Part shown: positions 9,101 to 46,400 of the stretch, one piece after another
Layout: each line of letters starts with the position of its first letter
Numbering within the stretch: position 1 is the stretch's first letter
Origin: Coptis chinensis
Taxonomy: Eukaryota; Streptophyta; Magnoliopsida; Ranunculales; Ranunculaceae
Assembly (NCBI GenBank): GCA_015680905.1
Contig: CM027378.1
Coordinates: 930,001 to 994,000, forward strand
DNA length: 64,000 nt
Direction: 5' to 3'
Program-made: the position numbers and the translations under genes
Notes under the pieces: generated by a model
What the model was told of the DNA's origin: nothing
The model's input: the letters and a program-made list of their open reading frames with translations, nothing else
Database searches by the model: none

Positions 9101-12100
9101 GACCACTGCGCTTTATTGTGCTTTGAGCACCTTCAATTACGGTTGAAGAAGCTTGTTGTAGGGGTTGGTCTTGCACAGAATGCATACTGCCTTCTACAGC
9201 AGTAGACCTTTCGGGTTCCTGTCCATGAGAGTTTCCAGTGTCATGAGACCCACCAGATTGAGGACCCGGGTGAACCTGATTGTCACCAACGTGGTTCTGA
9301 ACCCTCGCACCCCCATCGGCCAAGCCTATTGAGCCTGCATTGCCCCCAGCAGCATTTTGCTGCATCCTCTGCTGAGCCATTGCTATATTTCTTCCAAGTT
9401 CAGATTTGTTTGCAACATCACGGCGTTCCAATAAATATGTGCGTAACCAGTAGTAGAGAGCCTGCATAATTTTGAAACAAGTAAGCATTGGTTACAAAAT
9501 GTAAACCTTTTTATGGGTAATTAGAAGATGTAGACTTGCTCATATAATTTCAAGTCACCATGAAACCTAGAAGATTATAGAGTGTACCTGTGGATACACA
9601 GTGGCAATCTTTAGCAAAACAAGTTTGCAGTGGGGTGCTTCTGTCCTTTGCAAAGAAAGCAATAGCTGTGGGACCCATGAGAGCCAAACCCAGTGTGGTA
9701 TCTGCTCCAAGTACTTATCAAATGCTCTTCCAACTGGTTCATTTGCAGTATCAAAGCTGAGAAGATAAAGAACTCGGGCAAGATGGCTTCTAGAGTTGGA
9801 AACACCAAATTTGATGCCCTGAAGAAAGCAACTTACAGCATATTCTAACCAATACTCTTCCTGGGTTTCTTTGTAGATCTGGAATGATTAAAGGAGCCAC
9901 TTCAAATAAACATTCAGGAGAATAGCATATAAATGAAAAATTATGTGGAAAGTGAGTACCATGTCACAATAATTTCCCCAGCTTATCCACCCTTTAGGCA
10001 AATGCTTAAAAAGGCTGATGGCATTGGAATATGCACGATTAGCATTTTCACCATCACTTAGCTTTAATAGGAAATCCCCCTTGAGACGAAATATTTCTGC
10101 TTTATGTTTTACAGGAAAGTATTCAAGATTAGTACTATTAATTAAATTAAGACCACTAGTAAGTTCTCCCTTCATTTCCAGATAAGCCTTTGCTTGTTCT
10201 CTTATTTTTACGAAGGCCTCCTGAATAAAATACACGTGTGTCAGAAGTGAGGTGAAAAAGGTACAAGGGTGGGGTATTAAAGCATTCACGTGATCCAGTT
10301 CACAGTTTTCATACCTGGACTTCCATGGTTGAGTGGCCATACATCTTTTCAAGTATTGTAACACAAACATCATAAATGCCTTGCTTACGGGCAATGTGAG
10401 CAAGCTTATTGACGTTCCATGCCTTGTCACGGTAACCAAGGTGATGAAGTTGTGGATTTGTGGAACCAAAATCCTTGAACGCGTCAATGACAGCATTATA
10501 CATCTCATTCCTCCATTGAAGCAAATCATACCAAACAGATAAATTATCCCATTCATTTGGAGTTCTCAGACGCCAGGTCTCAAGGATGTCCTTCAGTTCC
10601 ATGTATCCACTATGAGCCCCCACAGTAGAATTTCCTGAAAGTTGCTTGTTACCATTGGCAATGTCCACAATAATTCTAGCTGACTCTTGAACTTCAACTA
10701 GTTGCTGGAACTGTTGCAGCAGTGGGATCCGGGACTGAACAGACATTTCAGGCAACTGCCACCACTGCTCTAAAGCAAGATCAACACCTTTTCCTACTAC
10801 GTTATCAGCATCTGTGACACCATTTGTGTTTCTATCATGAAGGGAGAAAAAGGCTTGAATTATACGGAGCTTTGGAGTATCTTCTACTTGGGCTTTCGGA
10901 ATCACATTATCTTTCATATATGGCCAATCTGGAACTTTCCAAAGACAATCAAGTAACACCTCGTAGTTTTCCACATTCTTGCCAAAGTCTGCCAACACAT
11001 CCCACTGACTAAGTTGGCAGGCACAGTGAAGCCATTGCTCTTCCCAGAGACACATTTCAGCCTTTGGAACTGTGTTGTTGTAAGTGCCTTGAGTTGCTTT
11101 AACCATGGCTTGATAAAAGAGGCTTTGAGCAAGCTGCCAGTAACCATGCTGAACTAGCGAAAGGCCAGCTCTAGTTTCAGCTGTAATGGATCTCTTTTTC
11201 CACAAACCACATCGCATATCTTCTTCATTGAGTAACCGATAAAGCTCAGCAAGAGACTCAGAACATTTTGTGTCATTCATAAACAACATTACATGACTTT
11301 CTAGCAAAGCCAAAGAGATATGCCAAGCATTAAAAGTCTTCCCAATGTATTTGATAAGCTCACTTGGCATTCGAGGTTGAGGGTGACTTAAGTGAAGACC
11401 TTCTAGAAGCGCTTGCACAACATTTGGTCTACTCGCCTGCTGTTTCTTGTGGTAATCTTTTGACAAAAGAGCTATCATTGGCTTAGCAAGTGCGACCTGT
11501 TCTTCCTTTTGAAGAGTAACCCAAACAATTGGAAATACCAATACCCACATGTGGTACGCTACATTTGCATCTACATGAGCAAGTTCTCTCAAAGGAATAA
11601 TAAGATCTGACACCTATAAAAAGAAAAGAACCAAAATAAAACAAACAAACATTACTCTCATAATGAAACAAAAATATAATCAATATTAACTTCCCATCAA
11701 GACGACCCTAAGGATGGTCAATCTAAACCATTCAGCACATTAGGCGCCTATGCTGAGGAATTAGATCCTATTTGTCTATTATGTATTTTGTATGCAGGCT
11801 TTCTCTTAAACGGACTGTCCGTTAACAGACATGTTATATAGTGTCTTGCAAAGCTTATATAGTGTCGTATAAAAGCTGCCCACAAACAAGTTAATAAGTG
11901 TAAATTAAAAAGCCGTTCAAGACACTATACAAGCTGTTCAAGACACTATATAAGCTGCCCCACGAACATGTCCATTTAAGAGAAAGCCTGATTTTGTATG
12001 ACCTGATGTCATTACTTTCCATCCCCATATCTTTGCACAGAAGTACCAGTATTTCATAGGCCATGTCCCCCAAAAAAATTTGAAATTGGATTTCATTCAT

Positions 12101-29000: not shown

Positions 29001-32000
29001 TAAATTCTCAAATTTAATGTTTTTCCTAATTATCGGTGAATTTAATGCTTCTACTAAATTTTGACTAAAAAAGAGCTAGATATAAATGTCGGCATTAAAC
29101 TGTTAGTGGATTTAAACATCAATCGAGGCATGAGAACAAATCCTAACCACTATTCAGACCACTGTAGGATTAACTGGGACCGCCAAGTATAAATCATTTC
29201 AGTTTTGTCACATAGATAATGTCATATTAATGAAATGAATTTTACAGATCAGAAAAAATAATAAATAAATAACTAAAGGTAGGTAAAAGAAAACCATTTG
29301 TTTTCTTTCTCTTTTGATTTTTGTTAGGTTATAAACCTCTTACTCTTAGTTTTCTTCCCTTAACAGAGACTAGCTATTTGCACGTGATCCCAGTGAAGAA
29401 CTCCATGCCAACGGTTTCTATATGCGTTGGACTCATTATCGGAAAAAATAAACAGTGTACGTTTTTTTCGACAAGTAAAATTTATTAATGAGGATGTAAA
29501 GAGGATACAATGTGAGAGAGAAACTCACTTACATGATACACCAGCTGTACACTGGAGGACCAGACACATCCCAAGTCCTAATGCCCATGCTAAAGAACTC
29601 CTTAATTAAAGTTAAACCCCTATGACGACCCACATACAAAGTCCCAACTAACTACATTCCGAATGTTGATATGAAATCCCCATTGTCAACCCTATCACTA
29701 GCAGTTATGTCATCGCTAGCGAGCAAATTCTCTTAGTCTACATGATCAACTTCATGTTCCCTCTCCATGTTAAGCTGATAATTGTCCAAACCCAACCCCA
29801 TCACTAGCAAATAAACAGTGTACATGTTGGAAGATCAGCAGATAATATGATGAACGTGAATTTCACTCAAATGAAACATTTGCACCAATGACTACGATCA
29901 TCAATTCACCATCACATACATAAAGGTACCATTTCACAAGTGTGTACCAAAATACGAGAGAAACTAGTGGCCCACAACAAGTGAGCTGGACCAGCAAATT
30001 TTTTTATTTTATTTTACTGTACTTTTATTCGATTTCTTAACTCAACTTAGGATTATTAAATAGAGAACACTTCAACGTATAACATGTGATAGTGGGTCCA
30101 ATGGCAGTAGGCCCAATTTCCTTTTTCTCTCTGAGGGTGTTATATTTATTAGGGGTACTTTCGGTATCATGAAAAAATGGCATTAAAAAAAAATCCGTTA
30201 CGTGCTTTATAAGAGCAGAGACACACAGTGCAAATACTTTAGGGCTGATCTAAATAATAAGAAATAACATACACGCCAAAAAAATTAATAAATAATTTAC
30301 CCATGATCAAGGTCTTAATCAGATGCTTGCAGTCACTGACTTCCTTAGAGTGCTCCAAAGGGACTTGCAAATTTAAGACTGCCTGCAAAGGAATTGAGAG
30401 TAAAATCAGATCTCACATAGCTAATTACCAAAAAAAGCACAGGCACAAATCTTATCTCACATAGCTAATTAACACAAACACACACGCCACACCCCACCAG
30501 CGAGTACACAAAAAAAAACATTATAAAACAAAACTAGAAATTGAGACGGAACATTTTTTATATCAATAAAGATATTCAATTAATATAGTATGCAATGTTA
30601 CATCAACACCTATAACCAATAGTAAGGACTTAATCATAGACCACCCTCGACCCCAAGTCCCCTACCTAAGCTGAAAGGACACAGACAATAAATAACATTT
30701 TGAAAAGAAAGCAGAAAGAGCTATTTAAAATAGAACCAAGAAGGGTTTAAAAAGAACAACTGTGCCAACTAACCTGCACAGGGATCTCAAGCTTTGACCG
30801 CAATGTTGATCGTTCTTTTCCTTCTTCACCTTCTTCTAAAAGCTAGTATATAACAATGACATCATCAATAACCATTGAGAGAGATATTTATCCCCATCAT
30901 TAAATAAGAAAATGCACGCGATGGATAACACAATTCACAAGAAAAAAGGGGAGGACATTCAATATTTGCTGAATACCTTACTATTCAAAAGAAGAAGCAT
31001 TTAACTTACTCCATTTTATTATAATCATATAAGATAAAATAAATCCAATTACAGATTTCCGAGAAAACTAGTTTTTCTGAGGATGACCATGGTTGAAGAG
31101 TCATTTCCATGATCACCTAATTCATGCATATGTGAACTCCATGCAGGTGCAGGTGCATGCTTATACATGCTACTTATGGTCGTGCCTTATGGCATTCCTT
31201 GTTGTTTTCTTCAATCATTTGTCAAATTTATGTAACTAATGGGTGTCTGGGCCTCCGACCCTTCTAAACACAAATGCGTTAGAAAGTGTGGGCTTAAAAA
31301 TAATATGAGCCCAAGTTTTTTTCCAGTTACAATTTTATTACTTTAAACTACCTATTCAAATAGACCTCTAAGTCTCTAACCTCTGGATTGCAAGTTGCCC
31401 CAAAGACGAATCGAGGGACATCACTGGGCTTGTGAATCACTACCTCGATTCTATATTAAAATCATTATTTGCAAGTGAAATTATTTAGTACTTTTGGGAG
31501 AATACAATTTATAAAAATAAAAACAAATGGATCTATTTGTATTGCCTTTTGGTTCATACTTTTAGGTTTGTATTAAGACCAAAATTAAAATGGGGCAATC
31601 TAAACTCACGTGGGTGGGTATTAACACGGATAGAAAGTGTTACATAAGAAATCATATATAAGCTAAAAGAACTTGTAAACCTTAAAGAGTTGGAGAACTT
31701 TCGAGGTTTTCATCTTAAAACTATCAACAACAAAAGAGGGTTTTGATTAGGGAGAATTTAGGTGGTTTAATTTATCCTCAAACTAGTTTTCTTGTCCAAC
31801 AAATCGAGGCAAGTACTTCTTCTCTAAGACAAAAAATCTTCATCTCAAAATAGCCTTTCAGAGTTTGAGGCCTGTGCTCAGCACATGCCCACAATTCGCT
31901 TACACGCATGTCTTATCGCAATCTCAAAAAACCTCTTCGTTAAGAAAATCTTTAAATCATTATTTCCAATCAGTAAAAGACAATTTCATTCAATTAAAAC

Positions 32001-35000
32001 AAATAACACATAATTACAAAGTAGCTATCAATTAGCAGGCACTAAGACAAGTACAACTCACTTACACTTGATAGGAGCTTAACAGCTTTACAGCCATTTA
32101 CAGTTTGGGTTAAGAAAAAAATTATTTCAACCATAGCAAAAATGAGAAATTGGGGTATACATTTTGGTCCTGAAATGGAGTGGACCGACAGATATTTCTC
32201 TGACACACAAGGATTAGTCTCTTACTAGTATGTGCATTATACATTTTCATATCCTTTCTGCTTTTGTACTCGTAAATACATAGGTCACCATTACACAAAA
32301 TGGGTGGCAATTAGTTGCAGCCCTACAACTTCAAGTGGCGCTTTATCCCATACAAGAAAAACCATAAATGTGAGTAGTTCAAAACCCTACTATGATTTCA
32401 TGCTTCATATAATTCTGTTTGATAGTTGGCATACCTGAGGAATAGTGCGCTTGAAAGTGCTAAACTTCCCAACAAATGCATCTAGAATTCTCCCCTGTAT
32501 GAAGTGGCAACCAAATTTTATTCCAGATCGAGAAAATATAAGTGTTGAAAAAGAAAAAAGAAAAAAATGCAAAGATGGTATCAGTCCAATTAATGAGCCC
32601 AGCTCTAGATATAGGCAAAACACGAGTCATACCAATAAAACCCGAGCTTCATCCATCGATGGTTGGTCAACACCTTTCTCGAATATAGGCTCCACCTAAG
32701 ATATATGATAAATTGATTCATGCCTCAGATATCCCAATTCACAAGCCAGACAAAAGTACTAGATCAAATCAAACCTAAATCAGAATCAATCCTGAAGGAG
32801 AGGAGTGCATATGTACCAGATTAAGCATTAAGCGGGCACAAGTCGTGTGAATACTGAGGGACAAGGATGCGTCATGCATGTTACTGGAGAACAAATAAAT
32901 GATTCGCGACAACTGCACAACAATCAAGAAATCAAAACATGCTCTATAGGTTACAAAAATATCGTGACAGATGTATGAGACGATAGCAACATGTAATAAT
33001 AAGATAATACACTTCTGACCTAAAAATTTAGGGTTGTGTTGAGTTCAAAACCTAAAAAACTAGTATTTTGGGACTCGCAATAAATATTAGTAATTTTACA
33101 TCTTCTCAAGGCTACCTTGTATGGGGACTAGTCTTCCACTCTTCCTCTTCAAAGTGTGCATAGTAGGCCTTAGTTGTATACGACCACACACTTTAAGATT
33201 AGTTTTCATCAGTGTGAATCCAAACTTAACCCTATCTCATCTAGTCACTTTTAGCATCCATCTTAACATTCTAATTTCCACATGGAAGTTTTTTGCATGT
33301 TTCTTTTAAAAAACACCCAACAGTCTGCTTCATATAAAATCGTTCGTCTGATAACTGTTGTATAAAACTACCTTTTAACGTATACTTTATCTTTTATTGC
33401 AAAAGAATGCAAGATCCAATCTAAATACAGACCAACAAATAAGCGCAAAACTAACATAACAATTCATCTAATGATGCAAGAAACAAAACCTGTGACAAGG
33501 AAAGATCTCCCCGAACATGATGGACAATTTCTGCTAGTAAACTGTAAGCCAATGGTCTCAGTGTCTCAAAGCACGCCCTCCCAGTCCCTACAAGAACCCT
33601 AATATCCAGAAACAAAATATATATACATATATATCAGTTGCAAAAATGTTTCAAAATCATATGCAATTTCAAAAGCTATGCCAAGCAAATTTTTTAAACT
33701 TGATAACATCAAGTACATCGCAAGACTTTCCGAGAAAGAGTGGGGAATTTACGGGAAGTAAATCCACCCACACATATGAGATGTATTATGATTGCACTCC
33801 ATTTTGAGTTGAATGAAACAGAAATGGTGGGAGATTCATTAATGAAATTAAACTATTATAATACTTAATACCTCTCTTCTAATAGAGTGTCAATCAAAGG
33901 AAATAAGCCCCTCTTGAAATCTGTTCCAAGAACGTGCTTCAGAGCTACTAGTAATTCCTGCGTCAAACAAGTTACATTTCACTAACAGGAGAAAGGGAAA
34001 AAAAACAAAAAAAAAAAGGCAACAAGAGTAAATTCATCATACTCTTACCTTGCGAATAGATACAGAATCAGGACAAGTAACAAGCAGATTAACAATGCTT
34101 TTACATATACTTTCTTCGTGCGGCCTGATATAATCAGCAAAACTCTTCAATAGGTACGTTAAAAAAGAAACTGTCTGCAACAAAAAGGACGAAGGAAAAC
34201 ATTGGTACACAAATGAAAGAAAATAATTTTGATAGCTAATCTGTCATGATCCCAATACTTTTCCGTTTTCCAGTTAGAGTGAGATGAGGTATAGAACCAA
34301 GTTGCAAATTAAAAGACTGAAACAGGGCAACTTGAATTAGTAAAGCAACAATAATGTAGCAAACATACCTTGACTTGTGCACCCTTCAATTCAATGAAAT
34401 GGTTCTTCAAATGAGGAGGAACCGATTCAGGACCAGGAACAGATATCGCCGCAACCATCAACGGCAACAAATGTGGAATATTAGTCTGTACTAACCGGTT
34501 GTACAACTGAAACAGAAACATCACGACCAACGGACTCTCGGTAACAATCTTAAACGAGCGAGTGCTCGGATTAAGCTGCCCAGTGGCAATATACCCAGTG
34601 GTTAAAGCACTGGAACCATCTAACGACGAAGACTTAGTATCAACATCTCCAGTCAAACTCCCGACTCCATTCATCAACCCTCCAGCACCTTCCTCAAAGA
34701 AATAACTAACAGTAGCCCTAAAATTCTGGTAAATCTTACAAACAAAGTCCAAAAAGGGTTGCACCTCGTTTTCGAGACTGGGTCTAAAATTCCTCAAGAG
34801 GTCGAAAATAATGCGAATACAAATCAATCCGTTTTCCTCATTATCATTAGTAAGTAGTTGAAGAGCAAGTTTCAACAAATCCTGAACAAAAGGTCTGAGT
34901 ACTTCACTGTGTGGTAAGCGATTCAAAATCTCGACAACAATGTTTCGTAACTTGTGTTCATGATTATCGGTAAGTTGAGGTGTAGTGATTTGAGTTAAGA

Positions 35001-35171
35001 TAACTGAAAAGACACGGAAATAACATTTCAAAAAGTTTAAATACTCTGCTGTGTGTGCTATTTCTAGACTGTCTCTCACTTCCATTGCCATTTGCAGTCT
35101 CTTTTGTATTGCTGTGTTCAGAACAAATAATAAACATAATAAATAATAATAATAATAATATAAAATCACAA

Positions 35172-35202
<31 letters not shown>

Positions 35203-35267
35203 GGCTTACGTTGATTGAGTTCGAGGAGATGGCGAGCGTGTTGCTCGAAGTTCTGAATTGGACTCAT
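3200..35267 (-). CDS. TRA1: TRRAP/Tra1 homologue, PIKK-family pseudokinase (35 exons, 3,898 aa)
   Basis: This encodes the plant homologue of Tra1/TRRAP, the giant nuclear scaffold that brings sequence-specific activators to the SAGA and NuA4 histone acetyltransferase complexes. The start codon at 35267-35265 gives [19 protein letters not shown], matching the known plant N-terminus. The stop is at 3202-3200, after [14 protein letters not shown]. All 35 exons join in frame to 11,697 nt, close to the roughly 3,800-3,900 residues usual in plants. Order: HEAT-type helical repeats (about 1-2600), FAT domain (about 2780-3190), pseudokinase (about 3510-3830), FATC (last 33 residues). Catalytic motifs are absent: GGRSPNK (3717-3723) stands where active PIKKs have GDRH..N, and QTDFHP (3735-3740) replaces the DFG region. 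A basic KRVKVE (2057-2062) could be a nuclear signal. The gene spans 32 kb because of transposon-loaded introns, and I see no break in the frame. Confidence 0.97.
5580..5790. mobile_element. Possible solo LTR or TRIM remnant in TRRAP intron 32
   Basis: This AT-rich stretch begins TGTTAGAGTTCTACGGGACA, like many plant copia LTR starts. It has a TATA-like CTATATATGG about 95 bp in and a pyrimidine-rich tail. I could not find a clear CA end or a target-site duplication, so element type and borders are uncertain. Confidence 0.25.
8198..8494 (-). other. Acidic open frame in TRRAP intron 30, origin unknown
   Basis: An open frame of 98 codons lies in the 1.4-kb intron 7616-8999. Its second half is strongly acidic (about 20 Asp/Glu in 50 residues, with [16 protein letters not shown]), unlike random AT-rich intron sequence. 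It may be the end of a degraded transposase such as a hAT-type one. I see no catalytic motif and cannot assign a family. Confidence 0.25.
11795..11990. mobile_element. Mini Mutator-like MITE with 10-bp target duplication
   Basis: A 196-bp element begins CAGGCTTTCTCTTAAA and ends with its reverse complement TTTAAGAGAAAGCCTG. It is flanked on both sides by ATTTTGTATG (11785-11794 and 11991-12000), a perfect 10-bp duplication. TIRs with a 9-11 bp duplication are the hallmark of Mutator-like elements. Inside, TTCAAGACACTATA is repeated twice on the right and its complement occurs on the left, so the element can fold into a hairpin. It sits in TRRAP intron 26 and has no coding capacity. Confidence 0.85.
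14061..16177. other. Large TRRAP intron 24, no recognised content
   Basis: This 2.1-kb intron is AT-rich. Its open frames on either strand resemble no family I know. I see no clear terminal inverted repeat or LTR in it. Confidence 0.5.
16178..24024 (-). CDS. TRA1: TRRAP exons 14-24 (central HEAT region)
   Basis: Coding exons in transcript order: 23032-24024, 22615-22950, 21797-22055, 21482-21704, 20994-21387, 20242-20391, 19918-20139, 19595-19816, 18360-19016, 16626-16886, 16178-16534, encoding residues 960-2317. The 16/17/18 junctions use phases 1 and 2 and return to frame. Exon 22 (18360-19016) contains the KRVKVE basic motif and a Ser/Pro-rich linker ending in [10 protein letters not shown], joined to [11 protein letters not shown] of exon 23. 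The donor of exon 20 (GAG|GTTTTTTG at 19917) is weak, but reading on would hit a stop two codons later. Splicing also gives the expected [14 protein letters not shown]. Confidence 0.92.
20827..20941. repeat. Minisatellite, about 42-44 bp unit, 2.7 copies
   Basis: The unit starting TCATCCAAAGCAAAGCAAAG and continuing through ACATCTTTATC begins at 20827, 20869 and 20913; the last copy is partial. The differences are a few A/G changes and T-run length. It lies in TRRAP intron 18, about 50 bp downstream of the exon 18 donor. Confidence 0.9.
22210..22236. repeat. (TAAT)n microsatellite
   Basis: A tetranucleotide run of about six AATT/TAAT units in TRRAP intron 15. Confidence 0.85.
24939..25718. 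mobile_element. Foldback/TIR transposon remnant in TRRAP intron 13
   Basis: The left arm (about 24939-25055) starts ATGTATTCAT and includes TAATTTGGAAATTACAT and AGTAGCTAATTCTCCATAGA. It recurs as reverse complement in the right arm (about 25605-25718), giving an imperfect terminal inverted repeat of roughly 115 bp. Inside, a 172-bp segment is tandemly duplicated (25003-25174 and 25175 to about 25358). The core is GC-richer than the intron around it, but no transposase is visible. The long TIR suggests a non-autonomous Mutator-like or foldback element. I found no clear target duplication. Confidence 0.7.
25003..25358. repeat. Tandem duplication of about 172 bp within the TIR element
   Basis: Both copies run from CTAATTCTCC through TACATGTACGCCATG and CATATTGGGCAAACATTAG to ACCATAAGC, with scattered substitutions and small indels. 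The start of each copy overlaps the inner part of the terminal inverted repeat. Confidence 0.85.
25798..35267 (-). CDS. TRA1: TRRAP exons 1-13 (N-terminal HEAT region)
   Basis: Coding exons in transcript order: 35210-35267, 34369-35111, 34049-34174, 33872-33957, 33490-33598, 32817-32912, 32633-32695, 32435-32494, 30774-30842, 30301-30382, 27283-27335, 27105-27203, 25798-27030. Together they encode residues 1-959. Every junction is GT-AG and keeps the frame; exons 1/2, 4/5 and 10/11 split codons. Recognisable stretches are [20 protein letters not shown] in exon 2, [13 protein letters not shown] in exon 11 and [20 protein letters not shown] in exon 13. Intron 8 (30843-32434) and intron 10 (27336-30300) are the long ones. 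Intron 10 contains a Harbinger-type MITE. Confidence 0.93.
27626..28055. mobile_element. Tourist-like MITE (PIF/Harbinger) with TTA target duplication
   Basis: A 430-bp element starts GGGCATCTCCAATGG, and its end is the exact reverse complement. The perfect match continues through GGGGTGTAAAATT, about 28 bp in all. TTA flanks both ends (27623-27625 and 28056-28058), the 3-bp target preference of PIF/Harbinger elements. No coding capacity. It lies in TRRAP intron 10. Confidence 0.88.
35112..35209 (-). other. TRRAP intron 1, 98 bp, dominated by simple sequence
   Basis: In the sense direction the intron reads GTAAGCCCTC, then 26 T residues (35174-35199 on +), then TTA repeats up to the CAG acceptor. 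Almost the whole intron is low-complexity, so its length is likely polymorphic or error-prone. Removing it joins MSPIQ...ELNQ to PIQKRLQM in frame. Confidence 0.85.
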
Positions 35268-35530
35268 TTTATTCTAGGGTTTTGATTTGAATTATTAATA
35301 ATCTAATAACGTTGTTTTAAGGTAAAAGTGTTTTGTTTTTCGAGGCTTCATTCAGAGCAAACAAATGGGAAAAAATTTTGCTTATTATTATTAGCTTTAC
35401 ATTTTTACTTATACTCCTTGCCTGGGTGCCACTCTCTTTCTAGGTGCCAAATTAAAAGATGCCACGTAGGTGTCATGCATATATGATTTCCAGTGCTACC
35501 GAGATTATAGAGCCTCACTCGCACTAACTA

Positions 35531-35908
35531 AGAGTGTGTTTGTTAAATTTTAACTCATGGAAAGGAAAGAAAATAAAATGGGTGGTCCACTATGGAATGG
35601 AATGGAATGGAATAGAAAGGAATAATTTTAAATGGTATAAAGCTATGGAAAGGAATAATTATATTGTTAGGTCATGGGTGTATTAGTAGTAACGCTCTAT
35701 CTATCTATTTCCTTTCCTTTCATTTCCACAAAAATTTCAGGAGTTAGCTAAGGACACAAAACCTTTTCTATTTCCATGATTTTGTTTCCATATGGAAAAG
35801 CTCATTTCCTTTCCATGGGTAAACAAACGCCTTACAAACTATGGAAAAGGTGAATCACTCTTATTTTCATTTCCTTTCTATAGTGTTTCCATCATAACAA
35901 ACACACCC
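35531..35908. mobile_element. hAT-like MITE upstream of TRRAP
   Basis: GAGTGTGTTTGTTA near the left edge and TAACAAACACACCC near the right edge form terminal inverted repeats. Flanking ACTAACTA (left) and CCTAACTG (right) could be a decayed 8-bp duplication (6 of 8 match), the hAT size. The inside is AT-rich with repeated GGAATGGAAT and its complement. It lies about 265 bp upstream of the TRRAP start codon, within or near its promoter. Confidence 0.6.
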
Positions 35909-36399
35909 TAACTGTGCCTCAATGCCTTTTGAAAACCTCTCTCGGCTATAGAAACACTGATCAACTCAAACACTCACCGAATACCTCTATAAATTTGTTG
36001 ATTTAAAGTCTTCTAACTTCCACCTATCTAGCATTGAAATCCTCTAACACAAGTGTGCACGTTGTAGTATGACTTCATCAATTTGGATTGGACATGCATT
36101 ACATATCCCCCACCCTTAGAGAAGATACGGCTGTTACCCTTTCTGATTCATTTTTCTTAACCTGAATAAGGTAACCATATGCTACTCCATAGTCTCTAAG
36201 ATAGTCCTTGAACTCTTTTTACTTGTAAACCCCACACCCCAATGCGGGATTTCTAATGTCTTAATGTAATGGTTGGGCTCCAAAAACTTTCTCCCTGGTT
36301 CATAGTTAAACCTCTCTTCGCATCAGTTCCAAAATTTGCTTTACGGTAGGTGTGAGATAGTACGTCTCCAGTGAGCAAGGTTTTGAGATAGTACGCCAC

Positions 36400-38380
36400 G
36401 GAGAGGAGGGGGAGGATGAAGAGGTGGGTGAGGAGGAGGACGATGTCGAGGTAGCCCATGTACCTCCACCGGTTATTGTGAGAAAGTCTAAGAATGATTT
36501 GGAGTTCCAGAGAAAAATTTATGGAGGTGGCCCTTACGGGTCAAATCTTTTGTATGACTATGCAGTGCACATGGCTCGCGGTGTTTAGGAGGGGCAGGTA
36601 ATATCATATAGTATCTATTAGTATTTAAGTTTTTTATTATGAAACCTTGTGCATACCTTAATACTAAGTTTTTGTTGTACGTTTTAGGCGGATCGAGGAG
36701 CGTTAAAGCGCAATGGGCACCTAACCAAGTTGGTACAATGGGATATCATCAAAGAGTGTTCAGACTGCTCAAATTTTCACGAGGAGCTTCAAAGGACCAG
36801 CTTATGTGCTATAGTATTCAGTGGATATAGGCAACATGATCTTGTGTCGGTCTCTGCGTTTGTAAACAGGTGGCATCCAAAGACCAATATCTTTCATATG
36901 CCATGGGCGCGAGATGACAATCACGTTGGACGATGTTTCCCAACTCCTAGGAGTTCCGATCAGAGGCAAAGCAGTGAATGGGGCCACTGATTTGAGTCTG
37001 GAACAGACAAAGAAACTCTTCCACATAGGTCTTGGCATACCCATGGACAATAAGATAGATGCGGAGATGAAAGCCAATAAGTTCACTTCCAAAGTTATGA
37101 TGAAATTATTGTTGAAGTAGTTTGCTGAGAAGGTGACGGATCAAGATTTACGCGATGGAAATGAGGTTGTTGTGAAGAAAGCGTCAACCCATAAAGAGTT
37201 GCAGTTTGTTGTGAGAGCTTATCTCTTATTTTTCTTTAGATGTACTGCCTTCACCAACACGCCTGGAATTGCAGTTCCTATTTGTTATCTGAGGCTGCTT
37301 TTGAAATTTAACTAGATTAGAGACTACGCGTGGGGTGCAGCCCTACTGGCATACTTGGGACTGCGACAAGTGCCAAGGTGAATGGTGTTTCAGACTATTT
37401 AACTCTCCTACATGTATGAGTATTCTCGTTTTTCTTTTCATTGTTAATTTTATCTATCTATTAAAATGTTAATTGAATGTCTATATTAATTTAGGCATGA
37501 TCTATTAGTATTTCCTGAGGTTCAGGCCATTCCTAAACTTGAATTATAACTTGAGCATGTCGCGTACTCATAAGCACTCAGTTACTCAGTTGAGTTATGC
37601 TAACACAACAGAAGCATTGAACTATATACTCGAGCGATACTTGATGATTTGACCTATTCCGATGTAAGTATTTTGGGTTTGTAAATAATTATATTTATTA
37701 ATTGATTATTGGAGTACGTGGTTAATGATTGATTTCCTCAATCATATGCTATTTGACAGGTTGAATGGTATCCCTATGATAATGTCCAGGCCACACGCCC
37801 GATGGATGAAATAGTTTTTTTCGAGGGATTTATATGTTTTATTGATGTTGTGGAGCATTACAAGGTTTATAGGGTTATGCATCAGTTGGGACACGTTCAA
37901 TTTGTACCCTTATATCCCCCAAGACCAAAGACCTCGACAAGAACCCTCTCTGGATGCGGCTACGACGTGAAATATAGTATTGTGCATGCCTACTGGGGTA
38001 GATGACAAAATCACGTGATACAACCCCAAAATCGATGACATACTGCTACTTATCCATGAGAGTGTGAGAATAGGTATATGTATTGGTATGAAAAGCAAAC
38101 TCATATTCGAATAATTAACCGTGATCTTCCTATTCACTAGCTTCTTCTTACAGAGTCATCCATTTCATAATCTGGTGAGTTAATATTCGAACTTTAGTTT
38201 TTTTTTTTCTTTTGGTCTTTTGGAAATGTATATACTAATGTAGTTTTGCATTTTAATTTTGGCAGCACCCCATCATCGATGAAACTACTTGTTTGCTTAA
38301 AAGGGGACTTTAATTGGGTGGGACTGTGATTCCAGAGGAAGCACGGGATGAGTTCATGAATGCATACAATTTGACCTAGC
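36400..38380 (+). pseudogene. Broken plant mobile domain (PMD/MAIN-like) gene
   Basis: Pieces of a PMD protein appear in order. They are an acidic leader and DYAVHMARGV; after a probable intron (36598-36688), RGALKRNGHLTKLVQWDI; then SGYRQHDLVSVSAFVNRWHP, MTITLDDVSQLLGVPIRGKA, AYLLFFFRCTAFTNTPG, DYAWGAALLAYLGLRQ, and a C-terminal part with FGYVQ-like LGHVQFVP. PMD proteins occur in MULE and gypsy transposons and in host MAIN-type genes. The copy is dead: a TAG at 36586-36588 sits where Trp is usual, there is a frame change near 36912 (HMPWA|EMTITL), a TAG at 37118-37120, and further stops. It runs towards the MULE transposase remnant, which lies on the opposite strand. Confidence 0.8.
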
Positions 38381-38679
38381 AAGTTCTTTGGTGGACGATA
38401 TTGCGCTGATACATCTTAGATAGGAATTTTGTTGTGTTTGGATTTAATGTATTTGGTGTCTAATGTATTATGAGATTTGATATATGTAATTGTGGATCTT
38501 GATGTATTTTTAAGTTAAACGGATGTCTTCGTATTTGTCTTAATCTCTATTGGTTGTTTTATATTTGTCTTAATCTTTATTGATTGTTTTGGATTTGACA
38601 GGAATATGATTTTGTTTGGATATGAAATTAAAGTTCCAAAAAACCAAATGAATTTTGCTAAGTTTTTGTCCCAAACGAT

Positions 38680-38980
38680 GTGGCCACATTGAGAAATCCA
38701 CTCCCCAACGATCTGATGGGATCGTTCTAGAGCTAAAATTCTAACATCATCAATTTTTTTGTCTCAAACGATCTCACCACATCAGGGAATTTACTTCCAA
38801 ACGACCTTGTCATATCATCCCAGAGTTAAAATACCAGCAGCATCATTTTTTTGGTCGTGAACGATCTCCTCACATCGAGGGACTTCAGCACCAAACGATC
38901 TCACCGCATCAATGGGCTTTAGTTCCAAACGATGTGACCACATCGAGGGACAGTAAGTCCAAACGACCCCATCACATCGT
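38680..38980. repeat. Iterated CCAAACGATnnnnnCACATCG array, left arm
   Basis: About eight degenerate copies of a 20-bp motif (CCAAACGATCTCACCACATC and relatives) repeat every 35-40 bp. The motif is itself partly palindromic (CGATGTGGCCACATCG). Matching arrays in inverse orientation occur at 39890-40150 and 42150-42360. Confidence 0.85.
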
Positions 38981-39471
38981 TCCAAAGTACACTTGAAATT
39001 TTTATACTTTAAAACAAATTAATTGATATTTGTGCAAGTTTTCAAATAATTTTAGAAAATTTAAAATTATTACTATTTAAATATTTTTTTATTTTAATAT
39101 AGTTATTCTATGAAATATGTTCAAAATTTCGATTTGGACACGAATTTTTCATACGAAAACACTTATTCATAAACCCTAATCCCTAAATCTGGTGCAAGTA
39201 GTTTTTAATGATAAAATGAAAAATAACAAGTTTATATTTAAAAATAATAATATTATATTAGATTTGCTTTGATTACAGTTATTCTCATTCAATTTGTTTA
39301 TGTAAACCTTAAGTTGGTCATACATATATTTCGTGCTAATACCATCTCATAACTGATAAGTCTTACATGCAAAATTTGCTATGATTTTAATTTTTCATAA
39401 TTCAATTTTTCAAATCAAATTACAATTTTTTTATCTTGATTGGTTGTGTTGATATGTTATAAACTTATAAG

Positions 39472-39818
39472 ACATATGTCAAAACACTAAACGTACTAAG
39501 ATATACACTGAGTCGATGTAATTTGGTCGATAATTAATCCATTTTAATCGATTATTGTTCAATTAAGTATTGTTAATTGAATTTATAAAGTTTTAATCAA
39601 TTTCACAATTTGTAATGTTCAATTAGCGTAAATTGTGTTGAATACATATGTCAAAACCCTGAACTTGCTAAGATATACATTGAGTCGATGTAATTTGGTC
39701 GATAATTCATCAACTTTAATCGATTATATTGTTCAATTAAGTATTGTTAATTGAATTTTTAAAGTTTCAATCAATTTTACAATTTATAATGTTCAATTAG
39801 CATAAACTGTGTTGAATT
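39472..39818. repeat. 172-bp direct tandem duplication
   Basis: ACATATGTCAAAAC starts each copy, at 39472 and 39644. Both continue through ATACA(C/T)TGAGTCGATGTAA and a series of TCGAT/CAATTAAGT motifs, with few differences. It lies in the core of the long-TIR element. Confidence 0.9.
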
Positions 39819-39889
39819 TTGAGTTCATTAATCCAATATTAGGCACAAATGGATGAACACGAGAATGATTATAGCGGTGTGGGTGGGTT

Positions 39890-40150
39890 GTTTGGAACAT
39901 AGGATAATCGATATGTCCAGGTCATTTGTAACGAAGGTTGATCAATATGGACACGTCGTTTGAAACAAACCTGCTGGAATTTTGGCTCTGGAACGATATA
40001 TCAAGGTTGTTTGGAACTGACTCCCCCGATGTGGTGAGGTCGTTTGAGACCAAAAAATTGATTATGTTGGAATTTTGGCTCTGGAACGATCCCATCGAAT
40101 CGTTTGGGAGTATATTTCTCGATATGGCCACATCGTTTGGGACAAAAATT
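39890..40150. repeat. Iterated CGATGTGG...TCGTTTGG array, right arm
   Basis: About six degenerate copies of the motif run in the opposite orientation to the array at 38680-38980, for example CGATGTGGTGAGGTCGTTTG and CGATATGGCCACATCGTTTG. The array is part of the right terminal inverted repeat. Confidence 0.85.
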
Positions 40151-40396
40151 TGGCAAAATTCATTTGGATTTTTGGCCATATCCAAACAAAATCATATACT
40201 ACCCTGTCAAATCCAAACAAAACCAATTTACTATAAATATCAAACCAAACAACACATATACATACATCTAAACCATCCAAATCAAGCAAATATACATCCA
40301 TACATCAAATTCCACCAAAGAATACCATCAAATTTAAGAAAATTGTATCAAAAACCAAATTACAATTCCAACCACATGAACATTAATTAAATAGAC

Positions 40397-42592
40397 TTAT
40401 TTGATAACATGTACTATTGGTGTTTCGGACCCATCATTAGTGTGCTTGTATTCCAATACTAAACTGGGAATATTCAATGCCGTAAATTGCGTTTGTTTTG
40501 CTTGTAATGCAGTATCCCAACTATCTGCAATTAAGTGTCGAGCTCGATCTATGCCCATTCGCATCGGTTTTGGAACCAGACAATCATCAGCAAGTTCAAC
40601 ATAGACAAAACGACATCCATGTATGTAAGCGGTACCCAACACTTTATTCACTATTTCAGGATTTGCTTGGGTTCTTAGTGGCAAGATAAGATAGCAGTAC
40701 ATACTTCCTAAATGTACATGAACGACATTAAATCTTGAAGCAAATAGAAATTCAGCAAAGGGCATGCTCATCCACTTATCAGGGGGTGCCCAACCTTTTT
40801 TCATGTGGAATTGTAGGTTTCACAAAACTAACCTCTCTCGTATATAACTAACAAAATTGAAGTACTCAACCCTATATTGTTTTTCCAAAACAACAAATCT
40901 ACGGTTAAAGATATCCTCAGTCCTCGATTTCACTACAGTGTTCCACGAGAATTGACCTTTCTCAACAAGTTATGTGGTTGGGAAAAAATCATGGCATTGC
41001 TAAAGGATACACGTAGCGATATGCCATCTACAGAGATGTTTGTATGCGTCAGGGAACACAATATCAACGACACTCATCAAGGCCAACTCCCTATCAGACA
41101 TGATCACAGATGGCCTTTCATCACCCATTAAGCCGTTAAACTGACGCAAAGCCCACTCATAGTCTATCTCTATTTCAGACCGAAGCAACACACTGACAGA
41201 CCGTGAAAGACTTCCAGGTTGAAGTCACCGCCACAAACTGTACAAAAGGTCATCGATACCTATTGGTTTTGTAGGTGGCATCTATGATGATAACTTTTGG
41301 AAAAGTTCGAGCCAACTTAACACCCTCTGGATGGGCCATAGTAACCCCGTTATCTCATCCGTATTCGTACCCTCTCTCACCTCCTTGAAATAATGGTTTT
41401 TTGCTAACATCTCACACAATCTCTGCATTTGCGTGCAACCGTTCATATCCAACATCCTCACCTTATGCGCATTATAGACTTGATATATGTTGGATAGGTT
41501 TTCAGGATACCTATTCCTGATGGACTTCAAAACTTCTTTAGGCTTAACTGAATTTTGAGTCGTCTTTGACAAGTACTCGAATTATGGAACGGTCAGCCGA
41601 GTAGCAAATGCATGTCCTTCAAGGGTCTTCGTCAGTGGATGGTTGTGAACACTATTAACAATAACAAATTTTCAACTATTGACATTGCCGCTTTGGAAAA
41701 AACATCTTAACTTAAATGGACATCCACGTTTTGCGGTTCCTGTATTTTTCTTATTAGCCTTGTCTTCACCTACCTTTTTGTGTGAACGATACACACCCGA
41801 ACTCTCACAAGTTAAATCCAACCTTGGTACTCGGTTCCCCTTAGCATTCTGCGACTTTCCAATTACTACAACCACATTACATAGTTTTCCCCAAGCAGTT
41901 GCCCAACCAATTATCTCATTATGTGTATGAAATACCTAAAGATATGAAGAAAACAACAATTAATACACTAATATTATTTCATTTAGAAAATAAAATCAAT
42001 GTCTAATATGTACCTCATTTGTAATAAATATTTTTGTTGTATCCATTGAAAGCGGTTCAACATCATCCACGTCATTCGAGTTTCCAGGGTTTTCGGAACC
42101 CCGCAAAGGATTCTGCATGAAGAACAATTGTTAAGTGATGTATTATACAGATGGTGAAACTAATCGATGTGGTTGGGTCGTTTAAGACTAATACAGTTCG
42201 ATGTGGTTGGGTCGTTTGAGACTAAGACAGTTCGACGCGGTTGGGTCGTTTGGGACTTACCCAGCTCGATGTGTCTGGGTCGTTTAGGACTCACCTAATT
42301 CGATATGGTTGAGTCGTTCGGGATGACTAAATGCGATGTGGCTGGGTCGTTAGGACTGGAAATCTCGGGTTTACACAAACACATAATCTAGCTAGCTAGG
42401 TTTACCTTTTGTCTTGGTCATTGACGATTTATTGGCATCTCCATTGTCTGACTAATCATATCATCTTCGTCTTCACTTCCCATTGCAACTTATTTAGTTT
42501 TCATTACAATTTTTTCACTCTCAACATTTTCTCTCATTTGGTTATCTTCAATTCCTCTATCTTCTTCATGTTCTAAAAAGTCCGGGTATTCC
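40397..42592 (-). pseudogene. Broken MULE transposase with OTU-like C-terminal region
   Basis: Reading the - strand from an ATG at 42592, the following appear in order: an acidic leader (MEYPDFLEHEEDRGIEDN); a FAR1-type DNA-binding region (LTCESSGVYRSHKKVG, KRGCPFKLR) after a probable intron at 41938-42010; KPKEVLKSIRNRYPENLSNI; the first catalytic-Asp region (IIIDATYKTNRY); DRELALM...FPDAYKHLCRWHI, the MULE domain second Asp and C-x2-H; and PPDKWMSMPFAEFLFASRFN, typical of the protease-like tails of some MULEs. The frame is broken repeatedly, including a stop soon after IDATYKTNRYR and a frame change near 41280, and part of the region between CRWHI and the tail is missing. It cannot encode an active transposase as it stands. 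Confidence 0.82.
42150..42360. repeat. Third iterated CGATGTGGTTGGGTCGTTTG array
   Basis: Six copies of a unit of about 36 bp with core CGATGTGGTTGGGTCGTTTG lie between the leader codons and the DNA-binding region of the MULE pseudogene. It has the same motif and orientation as the array at 39890-40150, and better conserved copies. Confidence 0.88.
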
Positions 42593-43408
42593 ATTTTAGC
42601 GTTTCGAAGTTTAGGATTTAGAGTATAATTTATGAATTAGGGATTAGAAACGTGGGAAAAGAGAAAGAGAAAGGCTAAACAGGTTGGCTACATGTTACCT
42701 TGATTTAGTTCGGAGTGCCCAATACAAATTATGATTTTTAGGTCAATGACAAATTTGTAATAAAATGTTTTTTTTTGGAAGTGCCCATAGCGAGTACATA
42801 TTTTTACCATTAGTCACCGTAAATCTCGCGCACCACAAATTTAGCATTAACGAAATCTAAGGCAACAGACAAAATAATCAAGACCAAAGTAATCAAGGAA
42901 TTATTCCATAGCAAAAAATCATTTTGTAATAATAGACAAATCATCTTTCAGGGTAAAAAATCCTTATTATTCCAATCATTCTACATCTTCTTTTTTTTAT
43001 ATATAATAAATAATAAATAATAAGAGAACATACAAATAAGAAACTATAAAAGCTCTCAAATCAATTTTGCCTCAACAACAAGGTCTTAACTGTTGTAGTG
43101 TACAAGCTAAAACCAACAAGGTCTCAAATTATTATTGCTATTATTGAGAAGAATGTTATTATCGCTATTATTATTTGGCAGTCTTTTACTTTTTGGCAGT
43201 CTTGTTCAGCTCCTCTTGCAGTGACCAATAATTTAGTTGATAAAAACGATAGTATACATCCCCTTTGGACCATATGGCTTTTTGATACCTACAAATATAG
43301 GACAACAGATCAAATGAAGTCCTGAATGCAGAGTGCCATCATCATTCTGACTGAATTGACAATCATGTGAACTATTGGTAGAAGAATCACAGGTAACACA
43401 TTCAAGCA
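42593..43408. other. Intergenic region between transposon island and TRM6
   Basis: AT-rich DNA without a supported gene. The right part must include the TRM6 3' UTR and polyadenylation region on the - strand. The end of the MULE is expected in the left part, but I could not identify a terminal repeat there. Confidence 0.4.
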
Positions 43409-46400
43409 CTACTCTGGTTTCTGCTGAGCTTCAGTACTACATATTTTGATCCCACTTAAAATATATCCACCAAAAGCACTCATCTGCATGCATGGGTGCG
43501 TTCTCGATGGCAGAACCTGTAGGGTTACCAAAAGAGCTCCAGGTATTACTATACAAATCAACCACCTGTATCGCTAAACCAATGGGAAGTATACCCAGAT
43601 AGATTTTAATGCAAGATAATACAAGTAAGTTTGCCTCTATGTTCGCATCAAGCCCAAATATTTTGACATCCTAAGATTGAACTTTAAGAAATATCCTTTT
43701 GATATACGTCTAGAAAGAAGAGCAGAAGATAAAGACGCTCTAAGATTGAACTTTAAGAAAAAAGGGAATCACAACCACCGCTATTAGATTTACCTGATAT
43801 TCACGTAACCAAGGTTCTGAAATTTGTAAACCAATTGCAAGTTTAGCAACCTGAAGATTGTGCATGCATGTTGTAAGAGGCTGCGCTCAAACAGAAAAGA
43901 TGTCATTGAGCGATTTTTTCCATAAAGGTGTGCATCCAAAAACTAATTATGGAAAAAACAAACATTTGCAGATCAATGTTATCTCGTAAGACAGTTGCAT
44001 TGAATCACATTGACCAGTATACAATATGTGCACTATGAAGATTAACATCAGATATAAGCCCAAATGTTATAATGGGGTGACCTAAAATCTTTCAATTGGT
44101 ACATTTGTTAGAAAGAGTTCAACTTCCCAGTATTTACTTTTCAGAAGTTTTCCTTCCATAGACTGAGTACAATAAAATACATCAATCAAACCTTGCTCCA
44201 TCGTCTGTCCTTATGGTATGACATACATGGCACCATACCATCATATCACATGTTTTTATTGGTAACAAGACAAGCAGTCCCAAGTATATTTACAAATTGG
44301 GTGGTTGATCATTCCATCGGGTAAAGTTTCACATGTTTTTAACTACCAGCATGTTCAAACAAATGGTTGTATGCCAGGTCTACATCATTATCCAGAATTT
44401 ATGCTAGTTCGGTAGATCCCCCCCTGAAAGAATATATAATCCTAATCTATAATCATTTCAAATTAGAAACCATAAGATGTCAAAAAGAATGACGCAGGTA
44501 TCTTCAAGGATAAGATATAGGTGGCACATTAAGTACGTACGCAAAAAATATTATTCCTACATACTTGTTTATTGAAAATGAGCTACATATTAAGACACTA
44601 TCTTTTCTTTTCTGTTCTAGATTCCTTCTTTTTCACTACAAGTTAATGACCAAAAAATACAACGAACTTTGGATGTTGTTTCAAAAAATATAACATATTT
44701 TTTATTATTAAAAAAATACAATGAACTTTCAATTTGTTTCAATTGATACATTCCGTTAAATTGATTTAAAGGCTTATGTGGACAGTGAAATGTGATGTGT
44801 CTATTATCAAATAAATTAGTTGGACAATGTTGGTTATCATCCACCTCACGATATTTTGGTGAAGACAAATTTGGGGTTTTCTTTTAACAGTCCACATAAG
44901 CATCCAGTCCAATTAATTGGATGGAATGTATCAATTGAAACAAGCTGAAAGCTCGCTGTATTTTTTAAAACATAGAAAGTTCATTGTATTTTTTAGTCAT
45001 TCTCTCTTTTACTATCTGTCTATCTTTGAGTCAGGATTGCAATTTCTTTGATTTTTTTTTTAACTCTACTGAATTCTGCAGTATTTATTATCACTATTCC
45101 ACACACACAAAAGATCTATATCAGAAGTTACTACAGGTCTTCATCTGCGGTCTGCCTAACGTAATTTTGTCTAAGAAAGAGCATTTGACAGAACTATCAT
45201 ACTAGGAATAATTTTTTTTACGAATATAGGAATGTAACACTTTTTTTTTTGCTGGAAAGAATGTAACACTCATGAGGTAATCACCTGTAGATACTGATGA
45301 TACACAGCAAATGGTGCTGAATACGATAAAAGCGGTAAAAGATCTTGAAGAGTGCTCCAGGTATCCAGCTCTGGAGCAGCAATAATTAAGCTGCAAATAT
45401 GAGTATACATTTAGGTTTATATTGAATATTAACTGGTATTTTAACCCATAACAATAGTTCTAGCAGACCTGTATTTACTATTTACCTAGAAAAACCACTT
45501 GCTTTCCACAAGTTAATGACTTCCTGCGTTGCCTTTTCTCCAGATTTTGTGGGTTTGCAAACTCTGCTAACTGAAGATGAATCAGTTTCATCCATGAATG
45601 TAGTAGGAGCCGGACCTAGATTTTCATTTCCAGATAAAAAAGATGGATGCGCATTGCTGACAGAATGTAAACATGACGGAGAAGATACTTGATTTTGAAT
45701 CACCACAGCTTCTAATTTAAATAAGGAGGGTGAGGAACTTTCATCTCCATTTGATTGAGATTGTAAAGACAAATTTTCTTGCTGTCCAAAATGTTCAACA
45801 TTGTTGCTTGCAGCTAAACAAAGATCAGAAAAAGGAGATCGCACTATGCTGCACCACAACAATCAAAAGCATCAATTACTACGCGTCATATAGTAAATGC
45901 TGATAAATAACTATTATAAGCATATTCTACCATTCATTAGACAATAAATACCACAAAAGTAACTGCTTCCACTTTTTTCAAAGGCAACGACCGATTTAAT
46001 CCATGGTGTACAACAAAGGCAGAATGATTACAATTGATCAAGGGTATGGATCATCAAACTGGTTTGAAAACGGAATCTCCTATCAAAAGTTAGAACAAAA
46101 AGAAAGCATTCCTGAAATGGCAAAGAAGCAATTTGGACAGCTAACCAATAGATTTGGGGTCCAAGAGGGTGGTGGACCGGTGCTCCCACAGTAAAGCTCC
46201 AGGTTTCAACCGTTTGCAAGCAAACTTAGGTCTCTCCTCCCCACTCCCCCCACAAAACCACGTCGATCCGACTTCCAGACGCTTTACTAGTGCCTAGCAT
46301 CGGTAACAACTTGTAATGGCAAAACTACTCACAGCCTGTCAATCGGTGAATGAATGGTTGGTTCATGGTTAATACTAGGCACTAATATTTTTGTTAATGG

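Follow-up and report, generated by a model that had tools for sequence, protein, structure and literature searches.

In the VANDAL elements of Arabidopsis, the targets of VANC21 are tandemly repeated motifs, found ahead of VANA21 on its upstream side and within introns of two further genes, VANB21 and VANC21 (PMC5735166), and VANC target motifs are described as evolving by tandem repeat formation (PMC5735166, PMC10398659). A gene for a plant mobile domain (PMD) protein lies antisense in the Mutator-like elements (MULEs) MUDR, MDR, MUDRAVI2, MULE-Monocots and MULE-Solanaceae_1 (PMC6446971, Table 1), a subgroup of group 36 is reported to have an N-terminal FAR1 domain (PMC6446971), and the authors who described PMD capture by MULEs speculated on its use in anti-silencing (PMC5418596). 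In the literature searched, in which few subscription papers were covered, no description of iterated target arrays in PMD-carrying MULEs was found. Here we describe motif arrays in a 64-kb stretch of the Coptis chinensis genome (assembly GCA_015680905.1, contig CM027378.1, positions 930,001 to 994,000, forward strand; hereafter the window), for which an initial annotation, made from the letters alone, had proposed one motif iterated in both arms of an element with long terminal inverted repeats (TIRs) and inside a MULE transposase gene. Such arrays recur in the non-coding DNA of a large family of Mutator-like transposons that carry PMD. They occupy two positions there: the stretch separating the 3' ends of the PMD gene and the transposase gene, which converge, and the 5' side of the latter gene, where the window array lies in putative intron 1.

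Three arrays of one motif

The window was scored on both strands against the 20-letter consensus CGATGTGGNNNNGTCGTTTGGGAC, with 50 dinucleotide shuffles as controls. At a threshold of at least 14/20, 20 sites were found, all inside three arrays and none elsewhere, compared to a shuffle mean of 1.74 (largest 6). At a threshold of at least 15/20, 19 sites were observed against 0.18 in the shuffles, while the loose threshold of 13/20 gave 38 sites against 11.4, many of them scattered. The consensus scan therefore confirms that one motif is iterated in three arrays, which lie where the initial annotation had placed them and hold 7, 7 and 6 sites at the threshold of 14/20:

38668..38979, minus strand: array 1, 7 motif units, left arm of an internal inverted repeat
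39875..40143, plus strand: array 2, 7 motif units, right arm of the internal inverted repeat
42165..42357, plus strand: array 3, 6 motif units, a 34-bp tandem repeat

Successive units of array 3 are 34, 34, 34, 34 and 33 bp apart, and in arrays 1 and 2 steps of 34 bp are interspersed with steps of 33, 51, 60 and 93 bp, so that the measured pitch is 34 bp and not about 36 bp as first estimated. Arrays 1 and 2 are mirrored: the arms at 38636-38840 and 39971-40175 show 86% complementarity along 205 nt. A 16-bp core, CGATGTGGCCACATCG, occurs at three places in the window, each time with one mismatch. The literal pattern given in the initial annotation, CGATGTGG followed after 4-8 nucleotides by TCGTTTGG, has 1 exact match in the window, though 904 genome-wide against 1 for the reversed control. 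The window lies in a genome of 935.6 Mb, and L-numbers below denote loci fetched from this genome.

A 26-bp palindrome at 34-bp pitch

Set at the 34-bp pitch, the units all conform to one dyad of 26 bp, CCAAACGA-N10-TCGTTTGG. The dyad symmetry ascribed to the motif was evident across the genome, where the 26-bp palindrome CCAAACGANNNGGCCNNNTCGTTTGG was found at 127 places against 0 for the reversed control. Pairs of half-sites 19-49 bp apart numbered 1505+1394 (2899) against 47+34 (81) in the control, and among the pairs listed 73 of 100 were spaced at exactly 34 bp. We further examined the dyad starting from exact right half-sites, allowing up to 2 mismatches in the left half-site and counting a palindrome from both strands. 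The left half-site was present at one fixed offset for 17/20 half-sites in L015/L028, 61/87 in the L011-type loci and 38/65 in the L001-type group, which consists mostly of gene-less loci and includes L007. Furthermore, none of 296 units from 28 sequences lay within 67,358 bases of coding matches, a set of matches that omits transposase exon 1 and a set of units 11 of which come from a small element beside L015.

The arrays belong to PMD-carrying Mutator-like elements

Twenty loci were fetched around motif matches, a selection made therefore by motif. Both genes were found in 13 of the 20, and in all 13 an array lay between PMD and transposase; 9 of these 13 have further units 5' of the transposase match, and the stretches of the others may end too early. 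Among the other loci, L017 holds the 5' side of the transposase only, and L009, L010, L012, L014, L021 and L026 match neither gene. Since these loci had been chosen by motif, an independent sample was drawn on PMD protein rank alone, consisting of 12 loci taken down the ranking with 5-kb stretches beyond the PMD match. In 11 of the 12, an array was located downstream of PMD, starting 0.6 to 2.4 kb past the match (shuffle background, a mean of 0.033 units per 5 kb), and in 8 of these 11 a transposase was found after the array within the 5-kb stretch. The genome contains at least 151 PMD matches, 150 of 2804 first-look candidates having been scored. An unrelated satellite was considered and rejected, because all assignable array places belong to this transposon superfamily, with L021 as the exception left unplaced.

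The first eight motif matches listed (L001-L008) represent 7 distinct places, of which 3 have both TIRs, 3 have one TIR seen in the stretch and 1 lies between PMD and transposase matches. This distribution bears on the idea that the palindromes are recognized by a protein of the host, be it a transcription factor or a chromatin protein, and that the transposons use it as a promoter or enhancer. The sites do resemble factor sites in their dyad and fixed pitch, and one array is situated just within the 5' end of the transposase gene; however, the other array lies at the 3' ends of both genes, and all 7 places, L021 standing apart, are in elements with the family's TIRs or genes. We consider a host factor of this kind quite improbable.

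A complete element, 7,198 bp long, was recovered from L033+L028, with TIRs of about 44 bp and a perfect 9-bp target site duplication (TSD), TTACTTTTT. Its TIRs carry 0 motif units. Some 4 kb separate the left TIR from the first array, and about 0.5 kb the right TIR from the last; the roughly 4 kb at the left contain no unit, indicating that the arrays in this element are not sites at both ends. The initial annotation had itself stated that its interpretation would fall if intact members of the family proved to have motif-free TIRs; for full-length elements, the TIR interpretation fails on this count. A second large element, of 10.5 kb in L015, has TTTTCAAAA on both flanks (1363-11878 in L032+L015+L031 coordinates). 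For L016 and L018, a search of the left ends found no TIR.

Short gene-less derivatives are filled by arrays and bounded by the same kind of TIRs. L001 is a TIR-array-TIR element of 808 bp with a perfect 8-bp TSD, AAACTGAA; L009 (about 736 bp) has a 10-bp TSD, and in L010 (about 812 bp) the TSD matches in 9 of 10 bp. Both TIRs without a clean TSD were found in L002, L003, L012, L014 and L026. A further gene-less TIR-array-TIR element (563-1352 in L032+L015, with the first 600 bases of L032 placed ahead of L015) directly abuts the large L015 element on its left, the target word TTTTCAAA being common to both; it went in within or next to a target duplication that was already there. The 790-bp unit and the large L015 element had been considered as one element with the TSD TTTTCAAA, a candidate that was rejected because they are two adjacent elements, 563-1352 and 1363-11878.

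The derivatives are relevant to the proposal of the initial annotation that the arrays are subterminal transposase-binding sites. On this reading they would be needed in cis for transposition and be bound by the FAR1-type finger of the transposase. That L001, L009 and L010 keep TIR, array and TIR is consistent with it, as is the FAR1-type finger of the L015 transposase (Pfam FAR1 6e-6, just under the cut-off; AFT 3.3e-7). In contrast, the L033+L028 arrays stand some 4 kb and 0.5 kb from motif-free TIRs, and the arrays sit in a putative intron and between genes rather than at the ends. We regard transposase binding in cis as unlikely. A PDB sequence search with the finger region of the transposase returned AFT2 (E 0.0037) and an implausible match at E 0.11, and the same search with PMD returned no match, giving no indication of which protein binds. 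The L015 translation also contains stretches that we take to be SWIM-like (CGCYLRTSHGLSCAH) and OTU-like (GDGNCGYRA), neither with Pfam support. Within the large L015 element and to the left of its PMD gene, L015:2352-3118 holds a fragment of a DUF538 gene (two pieces, Pfam E 2.1e-8 and 1.5e-5), a probable host gene capture.

Anatomy of the window element

It is almost certain that the three window arrays are internal non-coding parts of one large PMD-carrying MULE, organized as follows:

36404..42797, no strand: remnant of a single PMD-MULE element, collinear with L016 over 36404-42772, left end lost
36404..38005, plus strand: PMD gene remnant, broken by stops, recognized by Pfam and by DNA identity to relatives
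38604..40197, no strand: intergenic region of the convergent genes, comprising the mirrored arms and an AT-rich middle; same region in L013, L016 and L018
40397..42112, minus strand: transposase (MURA) gene remnant, exon 2 onward, recognized by Pfam MULE (E 5.9e-11) and its frames
42113..42405, minus strand: putative intron 1 of the transposase gene, mostly array 3, donor AAAAG/GTAAACC, acceptor TTCATGCAG/AATCC
42406..42594, minus strand: putative transposase exon 1 (MEYPDFLEHEED...), with two stops; the homologous leader is open in L018+L030

The PMD (+) and transposase (-) genes converge, as in antisense-PMD MULEs, with arrays 1 and 2 between their 3' ends and array 3 between putative exons 1 and 2. 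Three Pfam PMD pieces were found in the window (E 4.2e-5, 0.0034 and 0.00042), all under the curated cut-off; the DNA of this gene is 80-88% identical to L015/L016, and one L015 PMD exon scores Pfam E 2e-19. In relatives, the PMD exon runs about 480 bp further left than in the window copy. The MULE transposase remnant recognized in the initial annotation is confirmed by the Pfam match listed above. It retains a stretch with homology to the FAR1/AFT-type finger found in L015, the MULE domain and an OTU-like C-terminal tail, and relative to L016 about 1.26 kb of the gene is gone at about 40834. The MULE domain is present in the window and L015 (E 1.2e-14 in the latter); TSDs and TIRs were seen in relatives only. 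The right terminus lies at about 42797, the terminal letters ...GTGCCCATAGCGAGTAC being common to the window, L016 and L029; no TIR was found at the left end in 30000-36500. With its left end lost, the transposase gap of about 1.26 kb and stops, the window copy is a dead element.

Since L016 is collinear with the window over 36404-42772, the mirrored arms are part of the element. The earlier view that arrays 1 and 2 are mirrored parts of a TIR of about 320 bp is thus right as to the mirror images (86% over 205 nt) and wrong as to the TIR: no TIR+TSD pair was found around the arms (0 candidates), and relatives carry the same region between genes, which argues against a separate long-TIR element at 38583-40200. 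Array 3 does lie between the transposase leader and the DNA-binding region, as annotated. Of the two readings suggested for it, the remains of a nested TIR find no support, given the 5' units in 9/13 relatives (other stretches may end early), and were rejected because the array has a single orientation, has splice-like bounds partly common to relatives and occurs in other families too. The donor context is common to L016 and L018 only, and the acceptor context to L016, L018, L017, L015 and L028. The other reading, an autoregulatory site, may hold and comes close to the one we favour below.

Several observations concern the element and its surroundings. The AT-rich middle contains a 174-bp tandem duplication at 39472-39817, with copies 90% alike, and related repeats occur in L013, L016 and L018. 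Just left of the broken end, a possible small transposon with inverted ends AGAGTGTGTTTGTTA ... AACAAACACACCCT was noticed by eye at 35530-35910. A large open exon on the minus strand at 34309-35205 has the look of a TRRAP/Tra1-type host gene. Right of the element, nested inverted repeats (84 nt, 79%; 33 nt, 88%) form a compact foldback at 44645-45001.

Evolution of the arrays

In a tree of the arms of the window, L013, L016 and L018, the two window arms are closer to one another than to any other arm (87% identity, support 0.979). The left arms of L013, L016 and L018 cluster (0.951), and their right arms cluster weakly (0.503). The kinship of the arms within the window, together with the clustering of left arms across the other three copies, suggests that the mirrored layout is probably older than the window copy and that the window lineage probably homogenized its two arms. 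The mirrored intergenic layout was found in the window, L013, L016 and L018, and a single unmirrored intergenic array in L011, L019, L020, L022-L025, L015 and L028. In L030, which continues L018, the side of the intron-1 array is inverted-duplicated, units at 1526-1617 being mirrored at 2162-2253. Mirror-image arrays thus seem to have arisen more than once.

Mirrored arms between convergent genes could also act as a hairpin. Transcripts reading through from the convergent genes would then form double-stranded RNA, by which the family would be silenced or would limit itself; such a route has been proposed for Mu killer in maize (PMC3440606). The complementarity of the window arms and the recurrence of the mirrored layout in three relatives would fit such a role, but so many relatives carry the array unmirrored that a hairpin is not the common feature, and we hold this explanation to be extremely improbable.

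In L011, L019, L020 and L022-L025, both genes match the window, and motif arrays are present, while no blastn match to the window arms, middle or intron was found. The array-bearing families are only moderately diverged in their genes. Compared to L015, the transposase DNA is 74% identical in L019, 76% in L011, 72-78% in L027 and 71% in L007, and the PMD DNA is 64-68% identical in long pieces; the low protein identities (34%) seen for L019 and for L007 reflect decayed frames and not deep divergence. This moderate divergence (71-78% in transposase DNA), the homogenization of the window arms and the higher-order repeat periods observed in the L015/L028 arrays are what would be expected of a tandem repeat without a binder, propagated passively through slippage and gene conversion.

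Three observations argue against a passive repeat. First, the half-sites are more uniform than the linker: across 10 in-register arrays, majority agreement was 0.90 for the left half-site, 0.81 for the right, 0.74 for the core and 0.65 for the linker, with p=0.014 for the right half-site against the linker (n=10 arrays), a comparison somewhat biased toward the 26 motif columns because units were picked by motif threshold. Second, the half-site survives where the adjacent intergenic DNA no longer aligns. Third, the CpG of the half-site is mostly kept, with 18 in-register CpG-transition variants against 236 exact half-sites. Together, these data leave passive spreading with a low probability.

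A putative binding array for an element-encoded protein

Because the arrays lie between genes in non-coding DNA, have dyad symmetry and a fixed pitch, and persist where their surroundings no longer align, we tentatively favour, as close to an even call, the reading that they are binding sites of a regulator or anti-silencing protein encoded by the element itself. In this model, the element's own protein, either the PMD protein or the FAR1-fingered transposase, would land on the arrays in regular rows, bound as a dimer to each palindrome. Its likeliest job would be to keep the non-coding control regions open, by anti-silencing or autoregulation, after the example of VANC, which binds its motif and lowers DNA methylation, at the VANDAL motif arrays. 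Gene-less derivatives would retain arrays because this protein serves them in trans. An inverted duplication would have affected the intergenic array of the window-type family, in which the outer part of one half-site would have decayed.

A narrower version is rather doubtful: that the PMD protein of the transposon counteracts silencing in a sequence-specific manner, as a factor distinct from VANC, and is targeted to the rows of CpG-bearing 26-bp palindromes at 34-bp pitch in the element's intron and intergenic DNA. If so, the host proteins MAIN and MAIL1 would be relatives of a transposon-encoded, DNA-targeting chromatin factor, and the array elements without genes would parasitize that system.

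Several results weigh against an element-encoded anti-silencing protein acting at these arrays. The window-type group has mostly lost the outer dyad partner, which accompanies 4/31 half-sites, and its outer left half reads TTCGA or similar. Among the PMD-ranked loci, L040 (1/12) has no array and also no transposase in its stretch, and neither genes nor TIRs were found in the stretch around array L021. The small elements carry arrays near their ends, which fits transposase binding. In 5/5 elements, the arrays exceeded the remaining element sequence in CpG observed/expected, but after removal of exact half-sites the arrays were CpG-richer in 3/5 only, with the order reversed in L028 (0.53 vs 0.65) and L015 (0.59 vs 0.63), so that CpG ratios do not establish hypomethylation. 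No DUF1985, the VANC domain, was found in the subset of open reading frames (ORFs) scanned, namely 9 window pieces, 5 L015 MURA/PMD pieces, 1 L018 ORF and 10 other L015/L033 ORFs. Finally, the host PMD proteins MAIN/MAIL1 silence transposons, and their contact with chromatin is called an open question (PMC7156037, PMC8616336).

Comparison with known systems

Long-TIR and multiple-TIR MULEs of the Mutator superfamily (PMC3310237) resemble the present element in their inverted repeats and superfamily. They differ in having transposase sites in the TIRs, whereas in our case the mirrored arrays lie inside the element and the complete relative L033+L028 has motif-free TIRs of about 44 bp. The antisense-PMD groups share with our elements a transposase with an antisense PMD gene, 9-bp TSDs and TIRs of tens of bp or more (PMC6446971); iterated motif arrays are not mentioned in the part of that source covered here, and the likeness is drawn by description. 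PMD-capturing MULEs (PMC5418596) likewise have a MULE-borne PMD, but as PMD-transposase fusions, in grasses and Amborella, different from the separate convergent PMD gene found here.

The closest functional analogue would be the VANC target arrays of the Arabidopsis VANDAL elements VANDAL21 and VANDAL6. In both systems, a short motif is tandemly repeated in non-coding DNA and introns, with group-specific variants, and PMD and/or DUF domains are listed for half of the VANDAL group in Table 1 of PMC6446971. Lack of TIRs, or short degenerate ones, count as a VANDAL trait; the TIRs do not separate the two, being 46-174 bp for part of the VANDAL group (PMC6446971) against about 44 bp in L033+L028. 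The differences lie in the second gene, which encodes PMD here, whereas VANC has DUF1985, absent from the ORFs scanned; and in the site, which is the 9-bp YAGTATTAY for VANC21 and a 26-bp palindrome at 34-bp pitch here. In view of the ORF scan, we do not file the element as a VANDAL, although the PMD/DUF content and TIR lengths given for the VANDAL group in PMC6446971 leave room for a link. A multicopy PMD family is here tied to a precise candidate cis target, which makes the speculation that MULE-captured PMD serves in anti-silencing (PMC5418596) directly testable. If the reading favoured here is true, the VANC strategy of iterated self-recognition motifs in non-coding DNA would extend to elements with a different second protein.

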